A stretch of DNA of 64,000 nt from Cyclobacteriaceae bacterium (lineage in GTDB: Bacteria > Bacteroidota > Bacteroidia > Cytophagales > Cyclobacteriaceae), in NCBI GenBank assembly GCA_019694875.1, contig JAIBBC010000001.1, forward strand, positions 1,867,501 to 1,931,500, given 5' to 3'. The translations under genes were made by a program, and so were the position numbers. This document shows, piece by piece, positions 16,045-45,662 of this stretch. The notes beneath the pieces were generated by a model that saw only the letters and a list, made by a program, of their open reading frames with translations, was not told the DNA's origin and searched no databases. Position 1 is the stretch's first letter. Each line of letters begins with the position of its first letter.

Positions 16045-17928
16045 TTAATACGCGCGGACCAATTTCCCGTCCATGAAATTAACGTACGACCGGTTGGCTA
16101 CACGAGTGCCGCCTACGGTAGGGTAATTGCCTGTGAAGTACCAATCGCCACTGTGGCCCGGAATGGCCTTGTGCAAATTGTCTACCGTCTGGAAAACGAC
16201 CTGAACCTCAGCGCGCATGTCCGAAGGTCTTACGATCTCGGATATTTTTTGTGAGATTTGTTCATCTGTAAATTGATCGTAAAGACGCTGAACGTAATTC
16301 TTCGGACGCTCTTCCTGCACCGAGCGCTGGCACGCTTCGTAAACTTCTCCGAGCATGTAGTCTTTACCAGATTCTTTCAGCAGTTCAATCATGGCACGGA
16401 AAGCGACAAAATCGCCCATACGACTCATATCGATACCGTAACAATCCGGGAAACGGATTTGCGGGGCAGAAGAAACCACGATGATTTTTTTTGGATGCAG
16501 GCGATCAAGCATGCGAAGAATACTCTTCTCAAGTGTTGTGCCGCGCACAATGGAGTCATCAATAACCACCAGTGTGTCCTTGTCTTTATTCACCACTTCG
16601 TAGGTAGTGTCGTACACATGGGCTACCAGTTCATCACGCTGACTGTCATCCGTAATGAAGGTTCTCAGCTTGGCGTCTTTGATAACAATTTTTTCTACCC
16701 GTGGACGGAATGATAATACCTCCTCCAGCGGATCGATGGTGCTTTTGCCATCGATAAAAATTTCTTTCTGCTTGTTGATCAGGTAATCTTCAACACCGGC
16801 CATCAATCCATAAAATGCTGTTTCGGCCGTGTTCGGGATGTAAGAGAATACCGTATTCTTAATGTCGAAGTTAATCGACTTCAATACCTGGGGAACGAGT
16901 AAACGTCCAAGTTGTTTGCGCTCGCGATAGATTTCCGGATCGTTGCCGCGCGAGAAGTAGATGCGTTCGAAGCTGCAGGATTTTTTCTCGCCCGGCTCCA
17001 CGATTGAATGCATCCCGAATTCACCGTTTTTATTGATAACCAGTGCATGGCCCGGCTTGATCTCTTCAATCTGGCTATAGTTAATATTGAATGCCGTTTT
17101 GATAGCAGGTTTTTCAGAAGCAACCACAACAACTTCATCATCGGCATAGTAATAAGCCGGACGAATACCATTTGGGTCTCGCACGACAAATGATGAACCC
17201 GATCCGGTTAAACCGGCCATGGTATAGCCCCCGTCAAAATCCTTGCATGCCCTGCGCAGAACATTTTGCAGTTCTACTTCTTCTTCAATTATCTCCGATA
17301 CCTCTTTATTAGAGTATTTGTTCTTGTATTTTTCGAACAGCGATTGAACTTCTTCATCAAGGAAGTGGCCGATCTTTTCCATTACGGTAACCGTGTCGAC
17401 CTTTTCTTTCGGGTGCTGACCGAGGTTAACGAGAATGCCAAACAGTTCGTCAACATTGGTCATGTTGAAATTGCCGGCCATTACGAGGTTACGGCTTCTC
17501 CAGTTGTTTTGACGCAAAAACGGATGAACGTTTTCAATGCTGTTGAAGCCGTGCGTTCCGTAACGCAAGTGGCCCAGCCAAAGCTCGCCTGTAAAGGCAA
17601 CATTATCTTTCAGCCATTTTTCGTTGTTGAATTTCTCTTTCCCCGCTTTCTGGGCGCGCTTATATTTTTTGCCGATTTTTTTGAAAAGATTCGCTACGGG
17701 CTGTGATTTAATAGAACGATAGCGGCTGATGTAGCGCTGACCGGGTTCTGTATCGATTTTAATGTTGGCGATTCCGGCACCATCCTGGCCCCGGTTATGC
17801 TGTTTTTCCATGAGGATGTACATCTTATTCATTGCATAAGAAGTACCGTACTTTTCAATGTAGTAGGAAAGGGGTTTGCGCAGTCGAATCAGCGCAATAC
17901 CGCATTCGTGAAGAATTTCATCGCTCAT
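16045..17928 (-). CDS. purF: Amidophosphoribosyltransferase, long form
   Basis: First committed enzyme of purine synthesis: PRPP plus glutamine gives 5-phosphoribosylamine. The class II glutaminase nucleophile is Cys9 in HECGIALIRL, so an 8-residue propeptide must be removed, as in Bacillus PurF. Also visible are HNRGQDGAGIA, the GHLRYGTHG motif and the PRPP loop VVIDDSIVRGTTLEKS. At 627 aa it is much longer than the usual 470-510 aa. Extra segments lie early in the glutaminase domain (lysine-rich KKIGKKYKRAQKAGKEK) and elsewhere. It begins 9 bases after nuoN and is therefore likely carried on the nuo transcript. A second, standard PurF elsewhere in the genome is possible. Confidence 0.9.
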   Translation of the reverse strand: MSDEILHECGIALIRLRKPLSYYIEKYGTSYAMNKMYILMEKQHNRGQDGAGIANIKIDTEPGQRYISRYRSIKSQPVANLFKKIGKKYKRAQKAGKEKFNNEKWLKDNVAFTGELWLGHLRYGTHGFNSIENVHPFLRQNNWRSRNLVMAGNFNMTNVDELFGILVNLGQHPKEKVDTVTVMEKIGHFLDEEVQSLFEKYKNKYSNKEVSEIIEEEVELQNVLRRACKDFDGGYTMAGLTGSGSSFVVRDPNGIRPAYYYADDEVVVVASEKPAIKTAFNINYSQIEEIKPGHALVINKNGEFGMHSIVEPGEKKSCSFERIYFSRGNDPEIYRERKQLGRLLVPQVLKSINFDIKNTVFSYIPNTAETAFYGLMAGVEDYLINKQKEIFIDGKSTIDPLEEVLSFRPRVEKIVIKDAKLRTFITDDSQRDELVAHVYDTTYEVVNKDKDTLVVIDDSIVRGTTLEKSILRMLDRLHPKKIIVVSSAPQIRFPDCYGIDMSRMGDFVAFRAMIELLKESGKDYMLGEVYEACQRSVQEERPKNYVQRLYDQFTDEQISQKISEIVRPSDMRAEVQVVFQTVDNLHKAIPGHSGDWYFTGNYPTVGGTRVANRSYVNFMDGKLVRAY

Positions 17929-36878: not shown

Positions 36879-39800
36879 TTAAGCTAAATGTTGATTTTCG
36901 CGGAACGCGTCAGGAGGGAACGTCTTCTTAAACAGCATCGGAACCTTGTCCATCCAGGTGACCTCTACGGAATACACTCCGTACTCTTCGGTTACCCGGC
37001 CTTTTATCTCATAGAATCCGCGGCCACGCAACGGATATTTCTTTTCGATGTCCGGAAAATGGACCGTATCGAAAACTTTTCCTTCGCGATCGTTAAACGT
37101 ACCGAAAGCCATCGGCACACCCGTACGTGTAAACGTTGGCTTGGTGGTAACACAGTATCCAAGAATACGAATCTCTTTGCCTGCGTGCAGCTTCAACTCG
37201 TCCGACAAAATTCCGCGCTCCGGATTTTCAATCAGTTGGAAGGGATTGCATAACGGAAATCCCAACAACTCAATCTCATCAAATGCGTCTTCAATCTCGT
37301 TGCGTTGAAGAACCGGCAGCGGATATTCTTTCGGGTCGGTATCGAAAAGATCTACGGTGGTTTTGGTCTTGTTTTTTGCATCGCTGAACCACAGCATAGC
37401 TTCCCACAATAGTTGCTGTTTAGTTTTAGCGATAAACCGGAACGCACCAATCCGGATCAGAATGCGAAGCTGCTCCAATCCCAAATCAATTCTTCGTAAA
37501 AAATTATCGAGACTTTTATAGGGTCCGTTCAATCCGCGTTCAGCTGAAATTTGTCGCGCAACTTTTGTTTCCAAACTCTTTAGATGAACAAACCCTATGT
37601 AGATGCGATCGTCATCAATCGTGGTCAGGTATTCACTATTGTTCACGCAGGGCGGCTCTATGATGGCGCCATTCATGCGCGCTTCGTGAACGTAAAACTC
37701 AGTACGGTAAAATCCTCCAAAATTGTTGATCACACCCACCATGAATTCCAGCGGATAATGTGCTTTGAGAAACAGGCTTTGATAACTTTCTACAGCATAG
37801 CTGGCAGAATGACCTTTTGCAAACGAATATCCTGCAAAACTCTCAATCTCATACCACACGCGGTCCGTGATCGGCTGCGGATATAATTTTTTACAATTCT
37901 CAAAAAACTGATCTTTCACGCGCTGAAACTCTTCCCGCGACCGGTATTTGCCCGACATGCCCCTCCGTAAAACGTCCGATTGTGTCAACGTTAGTTTGCC
38001 GAAGTGATGTGCAACTTTGATTACATCCTCCTGATACACCATCACGCCAAAGGTATCGGCCATCAGTTCGTCCATCACCGGGTGAATCGATTCATACCGT
38101 ACTCCCGCTTTCGTCATGTGGAAGCGTTTGATGTACTCCTGCATCATGCCTGAACTTGCCACGCCCGGCCTGATAATGGAACTCGCAGCTACGAGCGTCA
38201 GGTAATCATCACATTTGAGTTTCTCCAGCAGCATGCGCATGGCGGGCGATTCAACGTAAAAGCAACCCATTGCTTTGCTGTAGCGAAGGAGATCTTTAAT
38301 TTTTTCGTCCTGCGTAAATTTTCTGAATTGATAGACATCCACATCAATACCGCGATTGCGCTTTACATGTTTCACCGTTTCCTTGATGTGACCAAGTCCG
38401 CGCTGACTGAGGATATCAAATTTGTAAATGCCGAAATCTTCGGCCGCGTGCATTTCAAACTGCGATACCGGAAGGCTTTTTGGAGGAAATTCCGTAGCGG
38501 TATACGTATAAATCGGTTTTTCCGTGATGAGTACACCACCTGCGTGAATGGAGATATTAGCCGGAAGTTCAAGCGAAACAATGTATCGTGCGTAGCTGAA
38601 AATCAATTCAGCAATGTGATCACGTTTTACATTCATCTTCCGGGTATCGACCAGCGTGTCAATTTCTTCTTTCGGTAAACCGAATACTTTTCCGAGTTCG
38701 CGCAGCACCGATTTCTCCTGGTACGTGGTATGGGTTCCCAGCAGGCAAACATGATCGTAACCATACCGATTGAAAATGTACTCGTAAATCGCATCGCGGT
38801 TATCCCACGAAAAATCAATGTCGAAATCAGGAGGTGTTACACGTTCTTCATTCAGAAACCGTTCGAAGTATAAATTCAGTTCGATCGGATCGACATTCGT
38901 AATGCCCAGGCAAAATGCCACCGTACTATTCGCCCCGCTGCCACGGCCAACAAAATCATACCCCTGCCTTTTCGCATATTGAATCAAATCGTACGCGATC
39001 AGGTAATAAGCAATGAAACCTTTGTTTTGAATGATGGCGAGTTCTTTCTCAATGTGCGATTCCCATACTTCCGGCTGATTCTTATACCGGATTGCAAATC
39101 CTTTCTTTGTTTCCTCACGCAGGTAGATCACATCGGTTTCGATTGATCCGGAAAAAGACTTTTTGTTTTTGTCTTCGCCCAATTCGCACTCAATTCCACA
39201 TTGATCGAGCAACGCTTGCGCATTCGCTGCGAGCTCGGGAAACGAATCAAATTGTTCCAGCAGGTTGCGTTCCGGCACCATAAACTCTTCTTTCAATGCC
39301 TGGAAATGTTCCGGCAACTTGCTGAGGAGGGTATTATTCGCGATGCTCCGCAACAACCGGTGTGTGTTGAAGTCGCGCCAGATTAACTTCTTGCTGTTCG
39401 CAGGATCCGGAAACGGCGGAAGAAAAGTTACCGGCTGCCAAAGCACAAACTTGTGACTGAATTCTTCGCGTGCCGGATTGGCTGCGTACGCAACAAGCTG
39501 ATGCCTGCGTACACCGATGAATTCATTCTTCCGCAACTCTTGGGGTTCAATGGCTCCAACCGCATAAATTACAAATGCATTATCGAAGCGCGGTGCCCGT
39601 TGCGGAAAGGGTTTGTCTTCCCGGTTATGATGTGAAAGAAACCGATTAATCTCCTCAAACCCTTCGTTGTTTTTGGCGAGCGCGATGTAAAGAAATTCAT
39701 TTCCGTTCCTGAACTCTATGCCAACTACCAGGTCCAGATCGTACGGTTCTTTATCAAACTTTGTTTTACCGTTTGCCAGCGCGCGGCTTTCCTTGCACAT

Positions 39801-39947
39801 GCGCAGCATGTCGAGCCATGACGATGTGTTATTGATTTCCGTGAGCGCCAGCTTATGAACGTTGCACCGTTTCGCTTCTGCAAACAGGGCTTTGACAGGC
39901 AAGGTGCCGTATTTGAAACTGTTGCCGGTATGACAATTCAGATACAT
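36879..39947 (-). CDS. Error-prone DNA polymerase III alpha subunit (DnaE2-type)
   Basis: C-family DNA polymerase of 1022 aa, shorter than replicative DnaE (about 1150 aa). The start is set at 39947 (MYLNCHTGNSFKYGTLPV), the normal N-terminus of the PHP domain. The catalytic Asp triad is intact: D376 and D378 in PPDFDIDF, and D511 in KFDIL. RHD-like palm and fingers motifs follow, and the C-terminus has an OB fold (ILGYCVTTKPTFTRTGVPMAF). In the PHP domain the first metal-binding His is Asn4 (LNCH instead of LHCH), so the PHP nuclease is probably dead. It ends a run with dinB and a 2H protein, which fits a translesion mutagenesis role. Confidence 0.9.
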   Translation of the reverse strand: MYLNCHTGNSFKYGTLPVKALFAEAKRCNVHKLALTEINNTSSWLDMLRMCKESRALANGKTKFDKEPYDLDLVVGIEFRNGNEFLYIALAKNNEGFEEINRFLSHHNREDKPFPQRAPRFDNAFVIYAVGAIEPQELRKNEFIGVRRHQLVAYAANPAREEFSHKFVLWQPVTFLPPFPDPANSKKLIWRDFNTHRLLRSIANNTLLSKLPEHFQALKEEFMVPERNLLEQFDSFPELAANAQALLDQCGIECELGEDKNKKSFSGSIETDVIYLREETKKGFAIRYKNQPEVWESHIEKELAIIQNKGFIAYYLIAYDLIQYAKRQGYDFVGRGSGANSTVAFCLGITNVDPIELNLYFERFLNEERVTPPDFDIDFSWDNRDAIYEYIFNRYGYDHVCLLGTHTTYQEKSVLRELGKVFGLPKEEIDTLVDTRKMNVKRDHIAELIFSYARYIVSLELPANISIHAGGVLITEKPIYTYTATEFPPKSLPVSQFEMHAAEDFGIYKFDILSQRGLGHIKETVKHVKRNRGIDVDVYQFRKFTQDEKIKDLLRYSKAMGCFYVESPAMRMLLEKLKCDDYLTLVAASSIIRPGVASSGMMQEYIKRFHMTKAGVRYESIHPVMDELMADTFGVMVYQEDVIKVAHHFGKLTLTQSDVLRRGMSGKYRSREEFQRVKDQFFENCKKLYPQPITDRVWYEIESFAGYSFAKGHSASYAVESYQSLFLKAHYPLEFMVGVINNFGGFYRTEFYVHEARMNGAIIEPPCVNNSEYLTTIDDDRIYIGFVHLKSLETKVARQISAERGLNGPYKSLDNFLRRIDLGLEQLRILIRIGAFRFIAKTKQQLLWEAMLWFSDAKNKTKTTVDLFDTDPKEYPLPVLQRNEIEDAFDEIELLGFPLCNPFQLIENPERGILSDELKLHAGKEIRILGYCVTTKPTFTRTGVPMAFGTFNDREGKVFDTVHFPDIEKKYPLRGRGFYEIKGRVTEEYGVYSVEVTWMDKVPMLFKKTFPPDAFRENQHLA

Positions 39948-39964
39948 CGGTTGTACCGGCAGGA

Positions 39965-40471
39965 TTATGAAAACGGCAATTCCGTGTAATATGTCCACGT
40001 GCCATCATTGCCGCGAAGCACAGTAATCGATTCACATTTAAATGAGTTGGCGTATCGCGTGTTGCGAATGGCCGGCCAGAGTTTGTTGAAATCTTCTTTG
40101 CTGAGATTTTTCGCGAGCGTGATATGCGGAAGGCTTTCCTGCCCGGTGAGTTTCCGCATGAGTTCACACACAGAATTTTTGTTGATGATGTTCAGACAGA
40201 TGGTATGATTCTCGCCGTGCCGTAAAACATACAAGCCGTTGATGTAGATGGTAAAGGGTTTAAAGCCCGACAATACATTGTCGGAAATGTGATAAAGCAT
40301 GTTGTCGCTGTGCACATCGCGGTATTTAATCAGAGAGATGTGCGCTTTCGAGAATTCGCTCTCATACGAATGCCCCAATATCCGTCTGAACCGTTGCTTG
40401 AAAAGAGAAACGTCTTTGGCTATGGGTGTCGGGGGTGAAATAAGAAGAAAATTGTCGGTCGCCTCTTTCAT
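39965..40471 (-). CDS. 2'-5' RNA ligase-like 2H phosphoesterase
   Basis: Protein of 168 aa in the 2H phosphoesterase superfamily (LigT/2'-5' RNA ligase or cyclic phosphodiesterase type). Two H-x-T/S motifs are visible, His44-Ile-Ser46 (KAHISLIKY) and His116-Ile-Thr118 (LPHITLAKN), placed symmetrically as the fold requires. It lies 17 bases upstream of the dnaE2-like start and 18 bases after the RAYT stop, all on the same strand. Its natural substrate is unknown. Context suggests a part in the DNA-damage or mutagenesis operon, perhaps cleaning up cyclic or 2',3'-phosphate ends. Confidence 0.88.
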   Translation of the reverse strand: MKEATDNFLLISPPTPIAKDVSLFKQRFRRILGHSYESEFSKAHISLIKYRDVHSDNMLYHISDNVLSGFKPFTIYINGLYVLRHGENHTICLNIINKNSVCELMRKLTGQESLPHITLAKNLSKEDFNKLWPAIRNTRYANSFKCESITVLRGNDGTWTYYTELPFS

Positions 40472-40489: not shown

Positions 40490-41338
40490 CTAATGTGTAT
40501 TCAACCACTTGGCTGGATTGTTGGCGATGTATTGCCGGATGGTATTCAATTCCACTTCAGAGAGGACAACACGATCATGGTATCGCGGCTGCCAATCGAA
40601 TTCCAATTGGTGGATTACAGCATATTTCTTCACTGCGGCCTTAAATCCACGGACAACAGACGCAAGATTTTCCGATTGGGGCTTGAACGCATTGGTTCGC
40701 CAGCTTTCATATTTCGGACGATTCAAAAATAAAATTCCATGCACGTGATCCGGCATGATCACGAACGCATCCAATTCAACAAACGGGAAATGTTGGGGTA
40801 TTTCATGCCAATATTTATTGGCGACATCACCGATTCGCGTCAACATTTGTACCGGCCGTAGAGACGCAAAATTTTGCGTCTCTACGTTGTTGCCCGCCCG
40901 CGTCTCTACGTTGTTGCCCGCCCGCGTCTCTACGTTGTTGCCCGCCCGCGTCTCTACGTTGTTGCCCGCCAGGGTCTCTACGTTGTTGCCCGCCAGGGTC
41001 TCTACGTTGTTGCCCGCCAGGGTCTCTACGTTGTTGCCCGCCCGCGTCTCTACGTTATCGCCCGCCCGCGTCTCTACGTTGTTGCCCGCCCGCGTCTCTA
41101 CGTTGTTGCCCGCCAGCGTCTCTACGTTGTTGCCCGCGTGTGTATCAATGGTGTTCTTAACCTGCGTCTTCAGGTTTGTTTCGACCTGTGCCTGTTCGTT
41201 GCTCTTTACAATCCGCCCGAAATACGGTTGTTTATTTTTTGTGCAAATCGTAACGAAATAAAAGCCGCGTGAGCCGTAGTCCCAGTTTTTTAACCGGGTG
41301 GTTTCAATTCGGTAGACGCCTTTATATTTCGTTGACAT
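40490..41338 (-). CDS. RAYT (REP-associated tyrosine transposase) with repeat expansion
   Basis: IS200-like Y1 transposase homolog of 282 aa. HUH His198/His200 (FVIMPDHVHGILFL) and the catalytic Tyr253 (WQPRYHDRVV) are present, with the N-terminal GFYFVTICTKNKQPYFGRIV and the IGDVANKYWHEIPQHFPFVELD segments normal for RAYTs. Between these (residues about 68-155) the protein carries eleven copies of an 8-residue unit (consensus GNNVETRA) that normal RAYTs lack. They come from the 24-bp DNA repeat at 40878-41141, whose distal end fuses with a perfect palindrome. Catalytic residues survive, so the enzyme may be active, but folding with a 90-residue insert is uncertain. RAYTs act on REP sequences rather than mobilising their own gene. 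Confidence 0.88.
   Translation of the reverse strand: MSTKYKGVYRIETTRLKNWDYGSRGFYFVTICTKNKQPYFGRIVKSNEQAQVETNLKTQVKNTIDTHAGNNVETLAGNNVETRAGNNVETRAGDNVETRAGNNVETLAGNNVETLAGNNVETLAGNNVETRAGNNVETRAGNNVETRAGNNVETQNFASLRPVQMLTRIGDVANKYWHEIPQHFPFVELDAFVIMPDHVHGILFLNRPKYESWRTNAFKPQSENLASVVRGFKAAVKKYAVIHQLEFDWQPRYHDRVVLSEVELNTIRQYIANNPAKWLNTH
40858..40885. repeat. Perfect 28-bp REP-like palindrome, in frame within the RAYT
   Basis: Positions 40858-40871 are the exact reverse complement of 40872-40885, so this is a 28-bp palindrome without a loop. Each half begins with GTAGAGACGC. It is read in frame by the RAYT gene on the minus strand (VETQNFASLR) and touches the tandem array. The arm sequence resembles a dispersed palindrome that I recall from other bacterial genomes, but I could not search for it. 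Confidence 0.85.
40878..41141 (-). repeat. 24-bp minisatellite, 11 copies, coding within the RAYT
   Basis: Eleven 24-base units in exact phase (unit 1 at 40878, unit 11 at 41118). On the coding strand each unit contains GTAGAGACGC or GTAGAGACCC, the arm of the adjacent palindrome, and ends in GGCAACAAC. Variants are mostly two types, encoding Arg or Leu, with a single Asn-to-Asp change. Because 24 is a multiple of 3, copy number changes keep the frame. The array is also open in other frames, which explains the Val/Ala/Arg-rich shadow ORFs. Confidence 0.95.
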
Positions 41339-41362: not shown

Positions 41363-42571
41363 TTAACCAGCCACCGCGCGAGAAACCTTTCCGTTAAACA
41401 CGTTCATTTCCATGCGCACCCTGCGGCTTACGCCAATGGTTGTTGCGCGAACCAGCTTCTCCACACCATGCTTGTGTTTGATGGTATCAATGGCCTCATA
41501 GAGATTGATAGTTTCGGCCGTATCGTTAAACAAATCGATTTGATGATTCCCATGCACGAGATTGCTTAACCGTACGCCCACCAGCCGGATCAGCATTCGT
41601 CTGTTATACAGTTTATCAAAAAGCTCCTGCACGACACGCAAAATGGTGTGATCAGATGAAGTGTAGGCAATGTGAACCTGCTTGGTTTCGGTATCGAAGT
41701 TTGAATAGCGGATTTTTACGGTAATGCAGGAGGCCAGTTTTTTCTGCTCGCGTAGTTGAAAGGCAACTTTTTCCACCATCGCAATCAAGATGGATTTCAA
41801 ACGCTTGACGTCAATCGTATCCTGATCGAAGGTCGACTCGGTCGAAATTGATTTTTGTTCTGAATATGAAACGACAGGGGAGTCGTCTACACCATGTGCC
41901 TTGTTCCAAAGCGATATACCGTTTTTGCCAAATGCGCTCGTCAAAAACTTGAGCGGCATCTCACGTAACGTTCCCACAGTGCGCACACCCATATCATATA
42001 AAAAGGAGGCCGTTTGTTTTCCGATCATCGGAATTTTATCCACCGCCAGGGGCGACAAAAACCCCTGCTCCGTCCCGGCCAGAATTTGCTTCGTGGCAAC
42101 AGGTTTGAATTCACCGGTAGCAACTTTCGATACCAGCTTGTTTACCGACATCGCCATGGAGATCGGCAGTCCGCTCTCTTTCGTGATTCTCTTTTGGAGC
42201 TCTACAGCCCATTTAAAGGCTCCGAAATATTTATCCATGCCACTAGCATCAACATAGAATTCATCGATCGATGATTTTTCAAATTGCGGAGCCGCATCGG
42301 CAATTAAACTTGTGACATGATGCGAAGCTTCCGAATACGCTTCCATGTCGCCCGAAATCACTTTGGCATCCGGACAAAGCTGAAGCGCCAGATACATCGG
42401 CATGGCCGAATGAACCCCAAACCTGCGGGCTTCGTAACTGCACGCAGCCACCACGCCCCTGCGACTGCTTCCGCCAACAATCAGCGGAATGCCTTCGAGT
42501 TTTTTATTTTTTCTGCGTTCTACAGCCACGAAAAACGCATCGAGATCGAAATGAATGATGTTTCTGTCCAT
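41363..42571 (-). CDS. dinB: DNA polymerase IV, Y-family
   Basis: Translesion DNA polymerase of 402 aa. Active-site residues are present: Asp9 and Asp11 in HFDLDAFF and Asp103-Glu104 in SIDEFYVDAS, with VAACSYEARRFGVHSAMP as the fingers motif. This is therefore a catalytically complete DinB rather than a dead ImuB. A clamp-binding motif QIDLF is at residues 344-348. The ATG lies 11 bases from a 15-bp palindromic operator, divergent from the S24 repressor gene, which suggests damage-inducible control. The following genes on the same strand are the RAYT, the 2H protein and the DnaE2-like polymerase. Confidence 0.95.
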   Translation of the reverse strand: MDRNIIHFDLDAFFVAVERRKNKKLEGIPLIVGGSSRRGVVAACSYEARRFGVHSAMPMYLALQLCPDAKVISGDMEAYSEASHHVTSLIADAAPQFEKSSIDEFYVDASGMDKYFGAFKWAVELQKRITKESGLPISMAMSVNKLVSKVATGEFKPVATKQILAGTEQGFLSPLAVDKIPMIGKQTASFLYDMGVRTVGTLREMPLKFLTSAFGKNGISLWNKAHGVDDSPVVSYSEQKSISTESTFDQDTIDVKRLKSILIAMVEKVAFQLREQKKLASCITVKIRYSNFDTETKQVHIAYTSSDHTILRVVQELFDKLYNRRMLIRLVGVRLSNLVHGNHQIDLFNDTAETINLYEAIDTIKHKHGVEKLVRATTIGVSRRVRMEMNVFNGKVSRAVAG

Positions 42572-42643: not shown

Positions 42644-43423
42644 ATGTCGATGGTGAATAAAAACCTGCGATTCCTCCGTCTTCAAAAAGGATGGACGCAA
42701 AAAGAATTGGCTGAAAAGCTTTCGCTGAAGCAGCCCGTGATCGGTGCGTATGAAGAAGAGCGTGCAACACCTCCGCTGGCGTGCCTCATGGAAATTTCAG
42801 ATCTTTTTAAGATCAGCATTGATACGCTTTCGCGGAAAGATTTGAGCAAGCTGCCCGAAGTTAAGTGGAGAGAGGCGGCTGTTGCAGTTAAAAGAGAAGT
42901 GCTGGCGATCACCGTCAACAGTGAAGACAAAGAAAATATTGAGCTGGTATCACAGAAGGCTGCTGCCGGATATTTGAACGGCTACCAGGATCCGGAATAT
43001 ATTAAAGACTTACCCAAGCTTAGCCTGCCGGTATTGCCGCGCAACGCAACGTACCGGGCATTCGAAATCAAAGGTGATTCGATGCTGCCGATACAATCGG
43101 GCGCGATTGTGTTTGGAGAATATGTGGAGAAACTACCGGAGGTTAAGAATGGGAAACTGTACGTGCTCGTTACCGAGAACGATGGCATCGTGTTCAAACG
43201 CGTGTTTATGAACGATGACAAATTGTTACTCGTGTCCGATAACCGCGAGTATGAACCGTATTCCATCAGCGCAGCTGACATCAAGGAGATTTGGGTTGTG
43301 AAAGCATTCTTTTCCACCAAATTCCCCGATATGGATGGAACGAGCTTTTCAGCCGATCAACTGGCTGCTTCGGTTCTCGAACTTCAGGAAGAAATCAAAC
43401 AACTCAGGAAGACTAAGAAATAA
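42644..43423 (+). CDS. LexA-like XRE/S24 family repressor
   Basis: Transcription repressor of 259 aa. The N-terminal XRE helix-turn-helix is GWTQKELAEKLSLKQPVIGAYEEER (about residues 16-40). The C-terminal S24 protease domain has Ser146 (KGDSMLP) and Lys185 (IVFKRVF), and an Ala108-Gly109 bond (KAAAGYL) fits the LexA self-cleavage site. It may therefore be inactivated after DNA damage through RecA. It is divergent from dinB, and the two share the operators. ATG codons exist at 42644 and 42650; the predicted transcription start is so close that the mRNA is nearly leaderless. No phage genes are nearby. Confidence 0.92.
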   Translation: MSMVNKNLRFLRLQKGWTQKELAEKLSLKQPVIGAYEEERATPPLACLMEISDLFKISIDTLSRKDLSKLPEVKWREAAVAVKREVLAITVNSEDKENIELVSQKAAAGYLNGYQDPEYIKDLPKLSLPVLPRNATYRAFEIKGDSMLPIQSGAIVFGEYVEKLPEVKNGKLYVLVTENDGIVFKRVFMNDDKLLLVSDNREYEPYSISAADIKEIWVVKAFFSTKFPDMDGTSFSADQLAASVLELQEEIKQLRKTKK

Positions 43424-43539: not shown

Positions 43540-43581
43540 CCCCAATCCCCAATCCCCAATCCCTAGTCCCTAATCTCAATC
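43540..43581. repeat. Six degenerate CCCCAAT heptads over the WG gene's 3' end
   Basis: Six 7-base units: three perfect CCCCAAT copies (43540-43560), then CCCTAGT, CCCTAAT and CTCAATC. The stop codon and last residues (IEIRD) of the minus-strand WG-repeat gene lie inside the array, so the heptads overlap coding sequence. Apart from this array and the terminator, the gap 43480-43562 shows nothing I can name. Confidence 0.8.
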
Positions 43582-45662
43582 CACTCTGCCTTCTTCAACA
43601 CCAGGTACCGGTCGTTCTTCGCATCGTACATTAAAAAATCATACATCTGCGGAATGGTATTCAAGCCCTTTAGCGTAGCAAGTCCGTACTTGCCATCCTG
43701 CTTTACCACAATATAACCGTTGCCGATATCCTGTATCGATTCATACTTCGGGTGAAGCAATATGTTTCCATTTTCATCGGCCAAACCTTTTAACCCGTTT
43801 AGGGTAATCAACAGCCGTTTGGTTTTCAGCACTTCCACCGAAGTGTATCGCACCGGCAAAACAACTTTGCCTTCATTATCCATGTAGCCAAACAATCCTT
43901 TCTGTTTCACAATCGAATGCCCATTGGCGAAAGGTGTCACATCATCGTAGGCGGGATGAACAATAATTTTTTCATCGCGATTAATAAAACCCCACTTGTT
44001 ACGGATCTTAAACGCGGCCAGTCCTTCGCTGAACGGCATAATGTCTTCATACCGGTTGGCAATGCGCAGCCTTCCCAAATCATCAATAAAGCCATACTTG
44101 CCCTGACGCTTTATTCCGCGCAAACCTTCTGATGCAGGAAAAACTTTTTCAGCCGTTTCAACCGGAGGCAACTGGCGACTCACAATCTTTCCGTCAAAAT
44201 CGATCGTCCAGGTACCGCCTGTGGAAACGTATTCCGTGAAGTTTTCTTTGTTTACCTTGATCGGATTATCCGTGAAATACAGAACAGTTCCGTCAAACGA
44301 AACGAGAAACAACGTCTTGTTTACTTTTTTGAAGTACCGGTCTTTATTCAGCAGCATCACTTTGCTTGTCTGCGGATACACAAGCCATTTTTCCCGCGCA
44401 TCGATGATTCCGTACAAACCCTTGAATTTCACAGCAAGCTGGTCGTCACCGGTTTGAAGAATGCTGTCGTACACACACGCAACCACTTCACGGCCCGTTT
44501 CATCAATCGCTCCGAAGTAGTTCTTGCGAGTTACTACAAACAACCCGTTGTTGTTCTTCGTGATGGCATCATAGGCTTTCGAAGTTCTCAACAATCCCGT
44601 GGTATCGCGCAACGACCAGTTGCTATTGCCATCCTGCGTCAGCAGGTAATCTCCTTCGAATAAAATTTTACGGAACACAGGCTTTAGTAAAACTCCGCCT
44701 GTTTTTTTCAGTACCCCGTACCCGGTGGAAGTCTTATAGATGGCTAGTCCGTTTTGAAGGGGTTCGATGTTCTCAACACTGTTTCCAATTTTGTGAAAAT
44801 TCTTATCGGCAAGCCAGCATTGATGGTCGCTCATGATCTTGTAACGATCTTCGTTCAGGTACGCGATTGAATCACCCTCCACCACATCTAACGTCTTATT
44901 ATCGGCAGTCATCACCAGCCACTCATCGGGCACGCGCGCACGAATCCGCTCTTTGGTGATTTGAACGTCACGGAACTTTGCCTCCGATTTCAATTGTCCT
45001 TCGCGATTGATTAATCCTTGCTTTCCATTTTCATAAATGATCGCCACATCGCCCCTGAAATCGGAGAGGCTGTCGATTGTGAATCCTGAAATCTGTTTAC
45101 CACTCTCCGAGTACAACGCAATCTTGCCGGTGAAATCCTCCACTGCGTAACGCAAGCTGCCAATCGGGTAAATATTTTTGTACTCGAACGGGATCAGCAC
45201 TTTGTTTTCGAGGCTGATCAACCCGTGTTTGAACTTATTTCCTTCGCGCACAAAGGCGACAATCCGCAACGAATGAACCTTCACACCTGCGTACGTGAAC
45301 GGAATGATGACTTTGCCTTCTGTATTGATCAGGCCGGCACGCACCACAACAGGCGATGACTTTTTTGTCGCTACAATCAATGACCCATCAGCGGGCGTTA
45401 GCGATAAATAATCTGCTTTTGTTACTTGCTGATTATTAACGGTGACGATACCCCAGGTTCCGCCAAGCTTATAACCAGTAACTTTTCCTGAAACCGAAAA
45501 TGTACCATTGCTCCAGCCGAGCGCATCATACATAGCAGGGATAACTACCTGACCTGCTTCATTTTTCAATCCGAATTTTCCGTTTTCCTGAAATGGAACG
45601 TAAGGGCCTGCAACCGTTTTCAAACTGCTCAGAACAACCGCTATCACTAAAATCACTCGCAT
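43563..45662 (-). CDS. WG-repeat secreted protein
   Basis: Protein of 699 aa built largely of WG (KWFGFID-type) repeats, about 15-20 units recognisable as motifs such as GKYGFIDDLG, NKWGFINRDE, GLFGYMDNEG and GKQGLINREG. A signal peptide (RVILVIAVVLSSLKTVAG) exports it. WG repeats form a beta-rich solenoid or propeller-like scaffold; their binding partner is mostly unknown. It stands alone on the minus strand, and its last codons overlap the heptad repeat. Confidence 0.9.
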   Translation of the reverse strand: MRVILVIAVVLSSLKTVAGPYVPFQENGKFGLKNEAGQVVIPAMYDALGWSNGTFSVSGKVTGYKLGGTWGIVTVNNQQVTKADYLSLTPADGSLIVATKKSSPVVVRAGLINTEGKVIIPFTYAGVKVHSLRIVAFVREGNKFKHGLISLENKVLIPFEYKNIYPIGSLRYAVEDFTGKIALYSESGKQISGFTIDSLSDFRGDVAIIYENGKQGLINREGQLKSEAKFRDVQITKERIRARVPDEWLVMTADNKTLDVVEGDSIAYLNEDRYKIMSDHQCWLADKNFHKIGNSVENIEPLQNGLAIYKTSTGYGVLKKTGGVLLKPVFRKILFEGDYLLTQDGNSNWSLRDTTGLLRTSKAYDAITKNNNGLFVVTRKNYFGAIDETGREVVACVYDSILQTGDDQLAVKFKGLYGIIDAREKWLVYPQTSKVMLLNKDRYFKKVNKTLFLVSFDGTVLYFTDNPIKVNKENFTEYVSTGGTWTIDFDGKIVSRQLPPVETAEKVFPASEGLRGIKRQGKYGFIDDLGRLRIANRYEDIMPFSEGLAAFKIRNKWGFINRDEKIIVHPAYDDVTPFANGHSIVKQKGLFGYMDNEGKVVLPVRYTSVEVLKTKRLLITLNGLKGLADENGNILLHPKYESIQDIGNGYIVVKQDGKYGLATLKGLNTIPQMYDFLMYDAKNDRYLVLKKAEWIEIRD

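Follow-up and report, generated by a model that had tools for sequence, protein, structure and literature searches.

An in-frame minisatellite, probably born of a trapped REP palindrome, in a RAYT gene of a dinB-dnaE cassette

In the window, the whole 64-kb stretch of Cyclobacteriaceae DNA analyzed here, a RAYT gene contains a perfect in-frame REP palindrome and, joined to it, a 24-bp minisatellite. The array as a whole is probably best explained as mainly a tolerated by-product of a gene-trapped hairpin that grew in frame. In this scheme, a double-foot REP would have sat in frame within the loop that joins strand 1 to helix A of a subclass-2.4-like RAYT, probably before any array arose (the placement of the REP is seen directly; the order is what we infer). 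In the window's lineage, its 5′ arm together with 14 bp of adjoining sequence would then have been duplicated and multiplied block-wise to eleven copies; slippage or template switching at the hairpin is the most likely mechanism. In-frame steps would survive because the loop is predicted to be disordered and the core is intact, and persistence most likely reflects tolerance rather than function.

The array, its palindrome and the host protein

TRF placed the array at 40876-41137, with a period of 24, 10.9 copies, 96% matches, no indels and a score of 461 (features are listed in Table 1). Translated in a single frame throughout, the octad is GNNVET(R/L)A, with one GDNVETRA. In gene order, the units end in LA, RA, RA, RA (the GDN unit), LA, LA, LA, RA, RA and RA, followed by an eleventh unit (40871-40894) that runs into the palindrome, its end being the palindrome arm. 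TRF and unit-by-unit reading bear out the eleven in-phase 24-bp copies of a preliminary description of this DNA, counting the arm-ending one, and its statement that the unit carries the palindrome arm also holds: the array abuts the perfect palindrome and the arm is common to both. Units 5-7 are mutually identical, as are units 8-10, a pattern suggestive of local duplication in steps. The differences between units speak against simple assembly stutter, though the copy count could still be wrong. Each unit contains the GTAG foot, and CA as well. No second locus for the 24-bp unit was found in the 4.68-Mb genome at up to three mismatches, 10 of 10 matches lying at the array.

Table 1. Features of the RAYT gene and its neighbors (positions in the window)
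Feature	Coordinates	Strand	Evidence
RAYT / TnpAREP-like Y1 HUH protein, 282 aa including the array	40490..41338	-	
Perfect 30-bp palindrome, double-foot REP (GTAG...CTAC), in frame as VETQNFASL	40857..40886	.	
Ten complete 24-bp units, coding for GNNVET(R/L)A	40895..41134	-	TRF; pLDDT under 50 at residues 77-160
Degenerate array edge (NTIDTHAG and beyond)	41138..41169	-	TRF 48-bp row reaches 41169
HUH motif MPDHVH, residues 195-200	40739..40756	-	H198 and H200 invariant, 37-row alignment
YIANNP with catalytic Tyr270 and Asn274	40514..40531	-	Invariant, 37-row alignment
WQPRYHDRVVL, residues 249-259, GTAG-recognition stretch	40562..40594	-	R104-equivalent is Leu259
Y-family DNA polymerase (IMS), dinB, upstream neighbor	41363..42571	-	Pfam PF00817, E 1.7e-44
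LexA-like HTH/S24 repressor, divergent from dinB	42644..43423	+	Pfam HTH_3 and Peptidase_S24
2H phosphoesterase (2′-5′ RNA ligase-like)	39965..40471	-	Pfam PF13563, E 1.8e-10
DnaE-type polymerase of the cassette	36879..39998	-	Pfam PF07733, E 1.2e-65

The palindrome, CGTAGAGACGCAAAATTTTGCGTCTCTACG, has no mismatch, and RNA folding of 40800-40960 gave a z of -3.25. The three frames of its 28-bp core read VETQNFASL, a frame opening with a stop, and RDAKFCVS; because only one opens with a stop, two of the three can be carried within a gene. Arm matches with at most one mismatch numbered 13 in the window, compared with 2.1 ± 1.4 in shuffles, the lone extra one being a single arm at 16279 with one mismatch. 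No second palindrome of the same arm was found in the entire 64-kb window, so that, for this arm, the gene lacks the flanking REPs that define a REPtron. The palindrome family is dispersed over 10 places in the 4.68-Mb genome (arms with at most three mismatches). Copies outside the RAYT looked intergenic by eye, some immediately after a stop codon; of the 9 such places, 8 were read (all but C3:913765), together with L010. Four of the own-genome palindromes (L004, L005, L006 and L010) overlap stop-to-stop frames that are 88 to 154 aa long and that were judged by eye to be spurious.

The array had been described as an addition to a conserved region of the enzyme. This was incorrect: it occupies a loop of variable length, in which the spacing from YFxT to HUH ranges from 44 to 168 aa among 68 RAYT ORFs (52 in 28 of them, 59 in 16). 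In the predicted structure, which was built on 37 rows with array columns nearly unique to the window, the core blocks are mostly at pLDDT 87-98 and the array falls below 50, so that it is predicted to be a disordered loop on the surface, between strand 1 and helix A. A solenoid or beta-helix reading of the octad, hinted at by weak Pfam matches to DUF2345 and FapA_N, was rejected on the basis of the same model, which gives the octad array pLDDT under 50 and no regular structure.

The best NCBIfam match of the RAYT ORF was REP_Tyr_transpos (REP-associated tyrosine transposase; E 5.5e-15), at 55.5 bits against a cut-off of 80; Pfam Y1_Tnp gave 19.5 against a cut-off of 23, the insert splitting the domain. 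The TnpAREP fold is present. H198, H200, Y270, N274 and P275 were all invariant in the 37-row alignment, giving the HUH motif and single Tyr of the class, and the catalytic HUH and Tyr thus remain, as had been proposed; the Y---NP context of the catalytic Tyr follows the accessible text of PMC6006769. According to the same text, the GTAG-contact residues (W94, Q95 and R104 in E. coli numbering) are well conserved and not strictly defining. The window RAYT keeps W249 and Q250 and lacks the full contact set, the R104 position, set by offset from W94 assuming no gap, being Leu. That position is Arg in 60 of the 69 RAYT ORFs parsed (from 70, L094 being left out). Among the five RAYTs found in such cassettes it is Leu (window), His (L041), Gln (L012), Cys (L155) and Arg (L154); HUH, Tyr, Asn and an open frame are intact in all five. 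Because R104 was lost while HUH, Tyr and frame were kept, GTAG recognition may have been changed or weakened in the cassette RAYT lineage, and the label "own target" is unsafe. The earlier suggestion of amplification from the enzyme's own target therefore survives in part: in-frame growth from a REP-type palindrome arm agrees with the data, whereas the words "own target" sit poorly with the leucine and with the lack of a second such palindrome flanking the gene in the window.

Relatives and the dinB-dnaE junction

The closest relative, L041, is a Cyclobacteriaceae MAG (by its identical places, one genome with G502 and G603) whose dinB is 96% and whose RAYT C-terminal half is 83% identical to those of the window. 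It shares the palindrome and its loop position with the window and carries 7.4 copies of a 15-bp unit that is half of the palindrome and encodes QNVET; the arrays of these sister species differ in both unit and number (GNNVETRA versus QNVET). In L012 (G062), the palindrome is in the same loop with the center ATAATTAT instead of AAAATTTT, and a second palindrome is at the C-terminus. The L012-type center occurs in 6 of 9 exact-arm copies in G062 and in 0 of 10 copies in the window's genome, so that the internal REP appears to follow its own genome's family in two orthologues, the window and L012, two cases being few. The first loop also holds a palindrome in L042 and decayed-looking palindromes in L154 and L155; at the C-terminus of L154, a palindrome is followed by repeats cut off by the contig end. 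The REP is probably older than the array because it is found in the first loop, intact or decayed, in the three nearest relatives whose array is different or absent.

In a tree of 68 RAYTs, the window lay within a starred clade (98/95) whose 28 members have a first loop of at least 56 aa. No palindrome was detected in 24 of these 28 RAYTs, so an ancestral REP in the clade is something we infer. Parsimony on REP presence needed 5 changes in the first loop and 12 in the second. With five changes, repeated insertion into the first loop may have taken place; whether each orthologue had a separate recent insertion is a question that these counts do not settle.

The gene order is S24/HTH repressor (divergent), dinB, RAYT, 2H phosphoesterase and dnaE, an SOS-type mutagenesis cassette; from this layout, the RAYT is probably co-transcribed with dinB and dnaE. 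The RAYT lies at the dinB-dnaE junction in the window, L041 and L012 (the last with no phosphoesterase between), and a junction RAYT is also present in L154 (dinB side, where the contig ends) and L155 (dnaE side). In three genomes of the same genus (G065, G122 and G424), no RAYT was found, the dinB-2H phosphoesterase gap being 111-117 bp with dnaE behind; in G015, G024 and G044 this gap is 120-183 bp. In G084 (L150) it is 833 bp and contains a C-terminal RAYT relic, NYIVNNPSKWIEK, then an exact-arm palindrome. The weak matches of the relic to RAYT (best E about 0.001), together with the palindrome, suggest that a RAYT formerly at this junction has since been lost. The RAYT has thus been at the junction for some time, with losses.

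Several further observations concern this neighborhood. The G084 gap holds, beside the relic, another small ORF, RKEMTEAERMLW..., which may be endonuclease-like. In L111 (G033), another, divergent HUH gene lies about 356 bp after dinB in the dinB-2H phosphoesterase gap, its best match being RAYT L033 (28%, E 4e-6). The dnaE adjoining the RAYT in G062 contains an in-frame REP arm (PVETHNVR; L012 1294), which the window's dnaE lacks. The window's 2H phosphoesterase is 90% identical to that of L041 and 34-38% to those of L065, L109-L112 and L147-L150, genomes in which dinB is 79-82% identical to the window's; the gene may have been replaced or be evolving very fast. A tandem repeat of CCCCAAT (7 bp, 5.1 copies, 43540-43575) lies at the end of a 699-aa ORF at 43563-45662.

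Arrays and palindromes across RAYT genes

Arrays with a TRF score of at least 50 occurred in 10 of 68 RAYT ORFs (about 9 independent cases, L033 and L034 being near-identical) and were absent from the other 58. All are confined to two loops, one preceding HUH and the other lying between HUH and Tyr, and every period is divisible by 3; not counted here were 18 rows scoring 30-49, mostly two-copy, of which 9 had periods not divisible by 3. When units were compared with the palindrome of their gene, 7 of 11 matched beyond shuffles (a score reached by at most 7 of 500 shuffles), with the match partly by construction where array and palindrome overlap, L033 scored with the L034 palindrome, and the L045 palindrome already containing the repeated unit. 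The four units not arm-like beyond shuffles were those of L030, L032, L033 and one of L034. The second loops of L030, L033 and L034 carry long acidic tandem repeats (27 bp) with no clear match to a palindrome arm.

Palindromes were surveyed with the window's own REP arm in 148 genomes of the family drawn without regard to RAYT, and enrichment was counted there only, RAYT genes missed by the family search being uncounted; another survey was excluded because its genomes had been chosen largely for palindrome-holding RAYTs. Thirteen of the 148 genomes hold exact-arm palindromes, 32 in total. Eight of the 32, in 7 of the 13 genomes, are inside RAYT genes, compared with fewer than 0.1 expected at a generous share (7 of 29 with the window's genome left out); one of these RAYTs, in G055, is frameshifted. 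A RAYT match was present in 9 of the 13 palindrome genomes and in 26 of the remaining 135 (Fisher p = 3e-4, uncorrected for kinship). In the window's genus, palindromes were found in 2 of 2 genomes with a RAYT match (E ≤ 1e-25) and in 1 of 15 without. As far as these genome sequences indicate, the palindromes prefer RAYT genes. G592, of the same genus, has seven dispersed palindromes and no RAYT match at E 1e-25; these may be REPs orphaned when a RAYT was lost, or the assembly may have a gap.

Alternative explanations and meaning

The array could have been made by the RAYT itself, if the enzyme nicked near the GTAG foot of the internal REP in single-stranded DNA and rejoined it out of register. 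Characterized TnpAREP enzymes cut at CT or CA near a hairpin with GTAG as guide, according to the accessible part of PMC8266576. The GTAG foot in every unit and the co-occurrence of REPs and RAYT across genomes are in its favor, and the CA makes the unit compatible with this cleavage rule, yet ordinary slippage needs no enzyme and the GTAG-contact arginine is missing from the window RAYT and from three of the four remaining cassette RAYTs; we consider this route quite unlikely. The same loss, found in 4 of 5 cassette RAYTs, could instead mark a degenerating gene, a non-working RAYT in which the array has gone unpurged. The frameshifted REP-holding RAYT of G055 and the G084 junction, reduced to a C-terminal relic and palindrome, would fit. 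All five cassette RAYTs nevertheless retain HUH, Tyr, Asn and an open frame, and the window's C-terminal half is 83% identical to that of L041, which makes decay unlikely.

A selected role for the repeat, as a linker or interaction arm whose copy number tunes the enzyme's partners or activity (a contingency locus), is very unlikely. The frame is held across at least 10 units, and other RAYTs also carry long arrays in these two loops, but any tolerated insert would keep frame, the repeat is wholly different in a sister species, the array is predicted to be disordered, and most RAYT ORFs have no array at that score. It also seems quite improbable that the RAYT was captured by the LexA-like/DinB/DnaE cassette, abandoned GTAG-guided REP recognition and became a damage-induced single-strand nuclease whose fast-varying loop switches partners.

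Palindromes kept in frame within proteins, as here, also occur as the Rickettsia palindromic elements (RPE); to our knowledge, these have no association with RAYTs and no arm-seeded minisatellite. RPE are mentioned by Di Nocera et al. (2013; PMC3733652), who describe intragenic GTAG REPs that are in frame, many of them in genes for DNA repair such as dnaE2, and whose clusters code for 43 to 82 aa. The window is alike in having a REP read in frame inside a gene and differs in that its unit is one arm plus flank; the accessible text of that paper makes no mention of a REP inside a RAYT. There is also a likeness to TnpAREP subclass 2.4 (Quentin et al., 2018; PMC6006769), of Bacteroidetes and Cyanobacteria, for which the text available describes double-foot REPs in frame in tnpAREP genes, "generally" between HuH and Y, short DNA repeats in the variable loop there, and the motifs NH[IFV]H, WQ and YIxNNP. 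The window gene likewise holds a double-foot REP in frame and the motifs WQ and YIANNP; at the first motif it reads DHVH (D for N). Unlike the subclass as described in that text, its insert is before HuH (the usual position being general, not strictly defining) and became an eleven-unit minisatellite, and the gene is not flanked by this REP and lies in a dinB-dnaE cassette. BrickBuilt of Porphyromonas gingivalis, also Bacteroidota, is similarly a minisatellite in a small element with inverted-repeat ends; this MITE differs, as far as the accessible part of PMC4596501 goes, in its 23-bp unit, not a multiple of three, and in being always intergenic.

No paper on RAYT minisatellites or on RAYTs in dinB-dnaE cassettes was recognized among the matches listed, most subscription journals being outside the scope, and supplementary figures S6 and S10 of PMC6006769 may show similar repeats. 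New here are the pre-HUH position, the recurring emergence of coding minisatellites seeded by a palindrome arm, and the cassette setting. A mobile palindrome trapped in a gene of its presumed mover family would have given rise to new coding sequence, with a ten-residue insert first and a minisatellite next, repeatedly and in the same two loops. A RAYT in a mutagenesis cassette also offers a testable case for what RAYTs do for their hosts.
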